Shown here: positions 24,922-26,562 of the stretch, in pieces
Layout: each line of letters opens with the position of its first letter
Numbering within the stretch: the first letter of the stretch is position 1
Source of the DNA: a virus
Length of the DNA: 37,295 nt
Reading direction: 5' to 3' (one strand)
Virus record (IMG/VR): IMGVR_UViG_3300028610_000771
Span: 1 to 37,295 of that record
Program-made: the position numbers and the translations under genes
Notes under the pieces: generated by a model
Told to the model about the DNA's origin: nothing
The model's database searches: none
The model's input: the letters and a program-made list of their open reading frames with translations, nothing else

Positions 24922-25800
24922 TCAAACCTCCTCTTCTAATTTTTTCAAGTTCGCCTTTAGTCTTTTATACTGCGAGATATCCCCGGCCCCAGTCGGCGGG
25001 TCGGCTTCGTATTTAGCAATTATATTTTTGAGATTTTTTATTTTCTCCTCCCTCGTAGGTTCTTGAGAATTGTCAACCGGGAGAGGGTCGCGGGATTTTG
25101 TTTTTCGTTTTCCATTTCTCTTTGAACAAGACTCAAGTTTCTCTCTTAATGCTTCGTCCGATTCAAAACTATTTATATTCAAGACAACATTCCCCCACCT
25201 TTTCTCTAATCTATATTGAATATCCCATCCGTGCATTTTGAATGCCTTTTGGTAAATATCAAATCTTAAAGCCAACTCGACAACATATTTATATCCAAAT
25301 GATTTTATCAATTTTTCAGTTTCTTTCTTATGCGTGAATTTAATTTTAAATCTTTTCAATAACCAATCTTCTATTGCTTTTGTAAAATCTACTTTTGTAT
25401 TATCTACTTTTGTGGGTAGCTTTTTAGTAAACGATTCGTTTACCTTTTCGCTAATTTTCGTTAGCTTTTTAGTAAACGTTTTCTTTTTTGTTAACGGTTT
25501 CCATTCGTCGAAATTCTTATTAAATCTATATAAAACAATCTCTCCGTTATCTTTTTTGATAATAATTTTCATTGAAATTAATTTTTTTAAAGCTCTTATT
25601 ATTGACGGCTTCTTTAATCCAGTGGCTTGATGAAATTGACTAAGAGAGATCCAGTCCTCTTTTTTATTATAGCCATAAGTTTTCCGAAGGATTGTGTCAA
25701 GCACTTGCCTTGCCTCTCCTGGAATTCTCGTTCTGCACAATGCGTCCATGATCTCGTTAGCTATCGCCGTGTAACCTTTCTCTTTTTGTGGATTTGCCAT
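24922..25800 (-). CDS. Phage replication initiator, O-like N-terminal domain
   Basis: 292 residues. The first 100 fit the phage replication protein O family: MANPQKEKGYTAIANEIMDA, then RTRIPGEARQVLDTILRKTY, GYNKKEDWISLSQFHQATGL and KKPSIIRALKKLISMKIIIK, a winged helix that binds origin DNA. Residues 105-140 are a repetitive Lys/Thr region (TFTKKLTKISEKVNE, TKVDNTKVDFTKA) encoded by the iteron-like repeats. The C-terminal part (FTHKKETEKLIKSFGYKYVV ... WGNVVLNINSFE) may contact the helicase loader. It overlaps the HNH gene by 44 bases. Confidence 0.85.
   Translation of the reverse strand: MANPQKEKGYTAIANEIMDALCRTRIPGEARQVLDTILRKTYGYNKKEDWISLSQFHQATGLKKPSIIRALKKLISMKIIIKKDNGEIVLYRFNKNFDEWKPLTKKKTFTKKLTKISEKVNESFTKKLPTKVDNTKVDFTKAIEDWLLKRFKIKFTHKKETEKLIKSFGYKYVVELALRFDIYQKAFKMHGWDIQYRLEKRWGNVVLNINSFESDEALREKLESCSKRNGKRKTKSRDPLPVDNSQEPTREEKIKNLKNIIAKYEADPPTGAGDISQYKRLKANLKKLEEEV
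25377..25478. repeat. Iteron-like repeats and inverted repeats inside the O-like gene
   Basis: On the + strand CTTTTGT recurs at 25377, 25392 and 25407, exactly 15 bases apart, inside near-identical 15-mers. TAGCTTTTTAGTAAACG occurs at 25417-25433 and again at 25462-25478, 45 bases apart. Between them lie the inverted repeats GTAAACG-att-CGTTTAC (25427-25443) and GCTAA-N6-TTAGC (25450-25465). The region is AT-rich. Lambda places its origin iterons inside gene O, so this is a candidate origin; a codon-level repeat (TKVD) is the alternative reading. Confidence 0.5.
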
Positions 25801-26239
25801 TTTCCCTCTTTTTAGATTCTTTCTTTATAGAATCAAAATATTTCCGTATAGCATTATCAACATTCGATTGATCCAAAACTTGCCTCGACAGCACGAAAAT
25901 AAAAACATCATAGATATGCGATATTTTTAATTTCTCAAATGCTCTATTTAATTCATCGATATTAGAAGATAATTTAAATTTAGTTTTTATTGTATATAAA
26001 AAATCGTCACAAGATTTTTTGAATTTTTTCGATTCTTCCTCATGGCAATATTTACATAAAGTTATCAATTCGCTTTCATCATAATCCCAAGGGTCTGCGT
26101 CTTGTCGATATAAAACATGATGGACGTTCAGTGTGTCTTCGTCGCAATGACATTGCTGGCAAGAAAATTCATCCCTTTCTAAGATCTTTAATCTTTTTTT
26201 TTGCCACCGGGGATCTTTTAATTTTTCTGAATAAGTCAT
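25757..26239 (-). CDS. HNH nuclease domain protein
   Basis: 160 residues. HNH core at 20-70: ERDEFSCQQCHCDEDTLNVH with Cys27 and Cys30, His40-His41, DPWDYDESELITLC and CKYCHEEE with Cys62, Cys65 and His66. The arrangement (C-x2-C ... HH ... C-x2-C-H) is that of McrA-like HNH nucleases with a structural zinc. The C-terminal 90 residues are helical and basic. It may be a packaging-associated, homing-type or regulatory nuclease. It is the first gene after the structured leader, and its AGGAG and AUG lie in the leader's switch. Confidence 0.8.
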   Translation of the reverse strand: MTYSEKLKDPRWQKKRLKILERDEFSCQQCHCDEDTLNVHHVLYRQDADPWDYDESELITLCKYCHEEESKKFKKSCDDFLYTIKTKFKLSSNIDELNRAFEKLKISHIYDVFIFVLSRQVLDQSNVDNAIRKYFDSIKKESKKRENGKSTKRERLHGDS

Positions 26240-26385
26240 CTCACGCTCCTAGTATATAGCCCGAGGGAGGCGTGAGACCAGACAATACTTCCCTTTGATC
26301 TCTGGAGGAGACAGAGGGTTTGGTGAAAATGTATGGAACTCCCTCGGGCTTAATTTTGTTTTTTCTTTTCATATCCTGGTCTCAC
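26239..26385 (-). ncRNA. Structured leader RNA with pseudoknot topology
   Basis: Predicted from pairing on the minus strand. P1: GTGAGACCAG (26385-26376), at the expected 5' end of the transcript, pairs with CTGGTCTCAC (26281-26272), 10 of 10. P2: AGCCCGAGGGAG (26350-26339) pairs with CTCCCTCGGGCT (26269-26258), 12 of 12. The order P1-P2-P1'-P2' is a pseudoknot. A hairpin CTCTG/CAGAG (26316-26300) lies between. Competing fold: TCTCACG-c-CTCC (26277-26266) pairs with GGAG-CGTGAGA (26249-26239), covering the HNH binding site and the A of its start codon. The two folds exclude each other. Confidence 0.65.
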
Positions 26386-26391
26386 AACCCC

Positions 26392-26420
26392 ATCTTAAAA
26401 TATAAATAATCATTTGTCAA
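26392..26420 (-). promoter_or_regulatory. Sigma70-type promoter for the HNH/replication operon
   Basis: TTGACA (26420-26415), a 17-base AT-rich spacer and TAAGAT (26397-26392). Seven bases after the -10 the transcript would begin at G26385, the first base of pairing helix P1. The -35 overlaps the last codons of the upstream 50-residue gene. The -35 and its flank (TTGACAAATGATT) recur at 18909 and, partly, at 10612. Confidence 0.6.
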
Positions 26421-26562
26421 AAGGATTGTTATTCATAAACATAGAAATTAAAAGAAAATAAATCATCCACTCAACAAAATTTGCTCCCTCAACGATATTC
26501 ATTCTAGACAAAGCTGAAGAAACTATTCCGGTTACAAAAAGAAATATAAGTTTTTGTTTCAT
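26410..26562 (-). CDS. Small membrane protein (50 residues)
   Basis: 50 codons with an AGGAGGAGAA site directly before the ATG, one of the strongest in the window. MKQKLIFLFVTGIVSSALSR has a hydrophobic first segment, then NIVEGANF and a second hydrophobic stretch (VEWMIYFLLISMFM), ending NNNPFDK. Two short membrane helices are likely. No family recognised. It is isolated, with 115 bases upstream and the leader promoter at its end. Confidence 0.6.
   Translation of the reverse strand: MKQKLIFLFVTGIVSSALSRMNIVEGANFVEWMIYFLLISMFMNNNPFDK

Follow-up and report, generated by a model that had tools for sequence, protein, structure and literature searches.

The level and timing of the replication initiator of tailed phages after infection are poorly known beyond a few models. 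In plasmid pT181 the replication initiator gene repC is attenuated in its leader, and this attenuation is driven by antisense RNA. A close counterpart of the element described here is the leader of the initiator gene repZ in IncI-alpha (ColIb-P9) and related I-complex plasmids. This leader heads the initiator mRNA; a 5' loop pairs with the loop of a 3' hairpin near the initiator start, and the leader ORF repY overlaps that start. Translation of repZ requires the pseudoknot, which is disrupted by the antisense Inc RNA (PMC9977716). The same pseudoknot/Inc RNA theme and the pT181 repC attenuator appear among the titles cited by PMC10724649. The ColIb-P9 repZ leader was used as control: UUGGCGG hairpin loop; 29-codon repY; 3' hairpin loop CCGCCA; repY end at the initiator start; its pseudoknot was placed from the published motif, the folding program not having chosen it unaided.

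Among phages, satellite phage P4 possesses a structured leader of its replication operon (seqA-seqB) with internal complementarity and possible self-limitation or immunity (PMC4825925), its CI RNA being processed and acting through separate target sites. A pseudoknot lies upstream of the replication gene 32 of phage T4 (PMC3014915); it consists of two coaxially stacked stems and is bound by the product of the gene, no leader ORF or terminator being reported. RBS-covering RNA hairpins occur near the starts of the endonuclease genes I-TevI, segB and mobE (PMC2988022) and are simple hairpins of the endonuclease gene itself. No description of the leader class reported below was found in the open-access literature; subscription journals could hold one.

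Leader RNA of the window

The window is the whole stretch of 37,295 nucleotides that was analysed; all features given below are on its minus strand. The 5' strand of helix P1 (GTGAGACCAG / GUGAGACCAG; 26376..26385), the presumed 5' end of the RNA and equivalently placed in related leaders, is the exact reverse complement of the 3' strand P1' (CTGGTCTCAC / CUGGUCUCAC; 26272..26281), 26385-26376 pairing with 26281-26272 (10 bp, −16.8 kcal/mol). The 5' strand of P2 (AGCCCGAGGGAG; 26339..26350) is in the same way complementary to P2' (CTCCCTCGGGCT / CUCCCUCGGGCU; 26258..26269), 26350-26339 pairing with 26269-26258 (12 bp, −25.5 kcal/mol). Both helices were checked base by base; they are interleaved in the order P1-P2-P1'-P2', and 2 bases separate P1' from P2'. 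P1 forms a free 5' end, not a hairpin loop, and P2' is not followed by a U-run, unlike in many relatives. An inner hairpin (CCCUCUGUCUCCUCCAGAGAUCAAAGGG; 26291..26318) is predicted within the P2 loop; an extra hairpin at the equivalent position was found in locus L018 and, by eye, in L017.

Interleaved P1 and P2 have a joint stacking score of −52.6. None of 4,000 dinucleotide-shuffled sequences came up to it; these averaged −24.3 (sd 3.0), and the best of them scored −39.0. The pair is third-ranked among all interleaved structures in 1.1 Mb of related phage DNA, both strands. The two perfect helices of the original prediction, their interleaved topology in the right order and place, and the structured leader of pseudoknot topology at the head of a replication operon are upheld by these data. 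Its remark that no known family was recognised agrees with a search of the Rfam 15 covariance models, none of which gave a match above the gathering threshold for the leader; the sole match was a tRNA in L272, and weak matches (E up to 10) were noise.

The first full-length cistron after the leader encodes an HNH protein of 160 aa (Y.EKLKDPRWQKKRL type; 25757..26239; PF01844, phrog_119). It is overlapped by 44 nt by the gene of the replication initiator O (24922..25800; Phage_rep_O, PF04492, E 4e-24), which confirms the predicted continuation of the operon into an O-like initiator. Overlooked before was a 43-codon leader ORF (MKRKNKIKPEG...ILGA; 26241..26372) that begins 3 nt past P1, spans P2, P1' and P2', and ends 1 nt before the HNH ATG. 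Its 43-aa product gave no homologue by tblastn, nor in Pfam/PHROGs, and on this ground an ordinary conserved protein was rejected.

The promoter-like site TTGACA-N17-TAAGAT (26392..26420) is present as predicted, would start the RNA at P1 (about 26385), and is the best sigma-70-like site in the 3 kb scanned (10/12 consensus), but comparable sites in those 3 kb are at chance level (7 found, 7.1 expected). Relatives of the Bacteroidota type have a TAnnTTTG element whose end lies a few bases upstream of P1; outside this type a general promoter signal before P1 was unconvincing (12/26 vs 8.5 expected overall). Upstream of the leader, a 50-aa membrane-like ORF (26410-26562) with a strong Shine-Dalgarno sequence (GAGGAGGAG) and no family match ends just within the leader promoter.

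The Shine-Dalgarno AGGAG and start region of the HNH gene (26239..26249) is the alternative partner of the 3' strands. P1' and P2' pair with AGGAG..GUGAGA through 8+4 bp and a single bulge, at −20.0 kcal/mol (p = 0.01 by comparison with start regions that were shuffled), where 7+4 bp had been predicted; the alternative pairing is thus real in the window. In 24 other loci the corresponding pairing is, with few exceptions, unremarkable (most p > 0.2). A two-state switch that covers the Shine-Dalgarno sequence was therefore rejected as a rule of the class, and at best it is specific to the window phage. The further idea of the original prediction, by which the RNA 5' end would select the state, is mechanistically close to the published plasmid repZ leader.

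Recurrence, covariation and gene context

Relatives of the HNH protein (DPRWQKKRL type) are encoded by many uncultured phages. An interleaved pair was found upstream of them in 27 of 67 distinct regions (40%) and in 7 of 300 control genes (2.3%); a region was counted as positive when its best interleaved helix pair beat all 60 shuffles, and the controls were 300 other genes from the same DNA. Among the 54 interleaved structures scored as hits in the 1.1 Mb, 16 are HNH-linked, though HNH-upstream regions make up a very small fraction of this DNA. Crossing-helix folding gave a common plan. P1 stands at the 5' end of the RNA or close to it and is connected by an A-rich joint to P2; P1' follows in a loop, frequently after an inner hairpin, and P2' comes next, ahead of the start codon. 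Many relatives have a U-run between P2' and the start codon, pointing to control of transcription, not translation, in these members; the U-run is missing in the window and in the L035/L037/L047/L082 group.

Cultured phages have the leader as well. It lies upstream in the Burkholderia phages BcepMigl (with HNH), BcepIL02 and DC1 (both without HNH), and related leaders were found in Flavobacterium phage elemoF, Vibrio phages 1.213.O and relatives, and Bacteroides phage C3_41T2LP; in the Vibrio phages the 7-nt loop pair was seen by eye, the folding program preferring other pairings in some runs. In phage JC1 the sequences of P1 and P2 are quite different, with topology and order unchanged. The leader is not universal, since the regions tested in B. 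fragilis phage vB_BfraS_NCTC and in Gifsy-2 did not show it. Searches of 395 Bacteroidota genomes with model R1 (strict filters, no positive control) gave no match and are uninformative; a genome-contig search with the HNH protein of L018 (the first one) found nothing, and no useful close relatives of the window were obtained through its O and RecT proteins.

Covariation in homologous leaders, which had been named beforehand as the test, was found as strong compensatory change. Of the 24 pairs in 15 Bacteroidota-type leaders, 18 have changes on both sides, and 94.7% of cells are paired (73.7% with shuffled partners); when partners were slid by 1–3 columns, paired cells fell to 32–50%. A covariance model of the nested part only, the kissing helix being left unmodelled, was run on 43 sources, and the loops of all 43 matches are perfectly complementary: 40 as 7-mers by script (10 different pairs) and 3 as a CCGUAC/GUACGG variant, i.e. 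11 sequence pairs within the Bacteroidota-phage subtype. Single compensated steps are seen among them (GUCGCAU/AUGCGAC, GUCGGAU/AUCCGAC, GUAGGAU/AUCCUAC), and G-U pairs occupy 12 cells in P3, as expected of RNA. In one group of eight sequences the mean loop identity is 0.51 vs 0.87–0.89 for the flanking scaffold; these eight were hand-picked, and the contrast is a pointer, not a selection test. Across many unrelated phages the fold is retained as its paired bases covary, which makes a hidden RNA switch for phage replication probable.

Gene order was compared in two sets of loci. In most of 122 HNH loci the gene after HNH is replication-initiator-like, usually overlapping, and of differing families, as judged from N-terminal sequences, with Pfam confirmation for the initiator of the window only. 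This pairing of DPRWQKKR-type HNH genes with initiators of many families, the gene ends usually overlapping (e.g., L174:4001-4982), is striking in itself. From searches with two initiator proteins 117 non-redundant loci were collected; a kissing-loop finder located the RNA in 17 of them with HNH and in 39 without HNH, in agreement with the covariance model. The figure of 39 is a count of loci, some of them near-duplicates, and not of independent events. In the HNH-less loci the RNA often ends a few nucleotides before the initiator ATG (L297: RNA 2407-2497, gene at 2501); in a few it lies some 430–730 nt upstream of the initiator, an intervening gene being possible. Phages elemoF, Vibrio 1.213.O, BcepIL02 and DC1 likewise have the RNA before the initiator operon and no HNH gene.

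HNH is consequently not the gene to which the RNA belongs, because phages without it retain the RNA before the initiator operon. The original prediction holds for a pseudoknot leader of the replication operon and fails where it centred this leader on HNH. The leader most likely serves the replication initiator O, and HNH is an optional cistron inserted between them. A role of the RNA as companion of HNH (a homing or RNA-guided unit) was dropped on the same evidence. In BcepMigl, HNH stands between a small HTH-type gene and the initiator; at its position a small gene annotated as helicase is found in phages CSP3 (L287:583-969) and JC1 (L289:522-908), and nothing in BcepIL02. The slot between leader and initiator therefore takes varied insertions.

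Leader ORFs coupled to the next gene (ATG ORFs of at least 25 codons with a stop within 20 nt of the HNH start) were found in 17 of 35 RNA-positive loci vs 3.9 in shuffles (sd 1.9, maximum 10, 100 runs). RNA-negative loci also have such ORFs (15/53); these are mostly, perhaps, the ends of real upstream genes, and shuffles are for this reason the relevant comparison. The excess is an enrichment and does not prove translation. In 28 of 35 hand-curated leaders an ATG lies within P1 or close to it (17.8 expected). In Bacteroidota-type members the leader ORF is mostly short or missing, and in BcepMigl it was not seen.

Candidate mechanism and alternatives

The features listed above resemble those of RepY/RepZ in several respects. 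The phage leader, too, heads a replication-initiator mRNA; pairing of a 5' loop with the loop of a 3' hairpin is found in all 43 matches of the phage model, P1 being a free end in the window; and the leader ORF, which overlaps the initiator start in the plasmids, is predicted in the window to stop 1 nt before the HNH ATG. Burkholderia phages have the same UUGGCGG : CCGCCA(A) pairing, UUGGCG and CGCCAA being located at matching places in BcepMigl, BcepIL02, CSP3 and DC1; the UUGGCG loop motif is absent from the window. The phage version differs in its occurrence in tailed phages before different initiators, its variable loops, its often terminator-like 3' hairpin, and the extra cistron (HNH or small ORF) that can intervene. 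Plasmids use antisense RNA, whereas none was found for the phage leader; in the window there is no plus-strand promoter-like site between P1 and P2.

On balance we favour, as the probable explanation, that phage replication initiators are controlled by a pseudoknot switch of the RepZ type, which also has a terminator-like variant. The data establish the pairing, its covariation, the placement ahead of initiators whether or not HNH is present, and the leader-ORF enrichment; switching, its direction and any RNA acting in trans are what we infer. The folded region would be the 5' leader of the replication-initiator operon, with an RNA beginning at P1. P1 would pair with P1' inside the loop of the 3' hairpin (P2) just ahead of the first cistron, giving the P1-P2-P1'-P2' pseudoknot or, where P1 sits in a hairpin loop, a kissing complex. 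The short leader ORF begins within or next to P1, extends through P2 and ends where the first cistron starts; as proposed for RepY/RepZ in IncI plasmids, ribosomes on it may open the 3' hairpin and then pass to the following start codon. Together with translation of this ORF, pairing of P1 with P1' would settle whether the 3' hairpin acts, by blocking the start codon or, in relatives with a U-run, by ending transcription; the window phage would be controlled at translation, and relatives with a U-run perhaps through termination. In the window, P1' held by P1 would be unable to cover the HNH Shine-Dalgarno sequence, and therefore the pseudoknot would be the ON state; loss of P1, e.g., to a putative antisense RNA, would give OFF.

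A transcription attenuator or immunity RNA like the CI RNA of P4 is an unlikely alternative. The 3' hairpin with its U-run would terminate transcription early, and the released small RNA would pair through its loop with nascent leaders, limiting replication or excluding a second phage with the same loop type. This reading accounts for the U-run after P2' in many relatives and for variable kissing loops (0.51 mean identity) on a conserved scaffold (0.87–0.89), as for a specificity element, and it has a precedent in P4, which shuts its own replication genes by CI-RNA-dependent termination (PMC4825925). Against it, the U-run is lacking in the window and in the L035/L037/L047/L082 group, the released RNA is putative, and the P4 leader itself, run as a positive control, gave no clear match to the P1-P2-P1'-P2' anatomy. 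Quite improbable is an autogenous leader, in which the initiator or the HNH protein would bind the pseudoknot and repress its own translation like T4 gp32: gene 32 is a known phage replication gene regulated through a leader pseudoknot (PMC3014915), but here the fold persists though the downstream initiators span many families, the pairing letters vary freely, and HNH is often absent.

The location at the head of a replication operon would also suit an origin or primer RNA, a transcript that primes or opens the phage origin and whose fold shapes the RNA-DNA hybrid; origins of the lambda type lie within the O gene. The enrichment of coupled leader ORFs and the leader ends just before start codons point instead to control of expression, and an origin role is very improbable. 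Control of the HNH homing endonuclease itself, of the kind exerted in T4-like phages by hairpins that cover the RBS of I-TevI or mobE, is hardly credible: HNH is indeed the next gene in the window, its Shine-Dalgarno sequence can be covered, and phage homing endonucleases have hairpins of this sort (PMC2988022), but the persistence of the RNA before the initiator operon without HNH (39 loci, BcepIL02, DC1) largely refutes it. Three trivial readings were rejected as next to impossible: inverted repeats arisen by chance, a plain terminator that serves the gene upstream, and a normal gene for a 43-aa protein. An ORF of this length does cover the region, but the 4,000 shuffles, the difference from control genes and the covariation speak against these readings, and a homologue of the 43-aa product was not found. 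An HDV-like ribozyme or a group I remnant, considered from topology only, was set aside because P1' and P2' are often nearly contiguous and a conserved catalytic core was not noticed; phage pRNA, a thought prompted by the kissing loops, found no support.

A covarying leader that precedes initiators of differing families, and that occurs in phages infecting Bacteroidota, Burkholderia, Vibrio and a wide range of uncultured hosts, offers a directly testable control point of replication. Given its resemblance to the copy-number switches of plasmids, phages and plasmids may have converged on the same RNA logic or may share it. Were the loops to act in trans, rapid loop change would define compatibility groups among co-infecting phages. 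A wider proposal is tentative: an unnamed widespread class of phage leaders would combine a conserved scaffold with a hypervariable kissing pair, and this pair would both control the initiator and act as incompatibility or immunity determinant between co-infecting phages, as the phage counterpart of plasmid copy-number control.

Further RNA elements in related contigs

In L002, in the ~100 nt that immediately precede the HNH start (2887), a tRNA-Met-like sequence (CAU anticodon; by eye) takes the place of the leader. Inspection by eye also showed another conserved RNA-like element, distinct from the leader, upstream of the same HNH family in L021, L042, L115, L182, L238, L199, L211, L061, L081 and L180; its pattern is GGCUAG...CGAAAAGC...CUGCCG, and its hairpin loop can pair with a strand just before the Shine-Dalgarno sequence. 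One phage contig, L417, contains two copies of the Bacteroidota-type leader (397-486 and 2054-2141).
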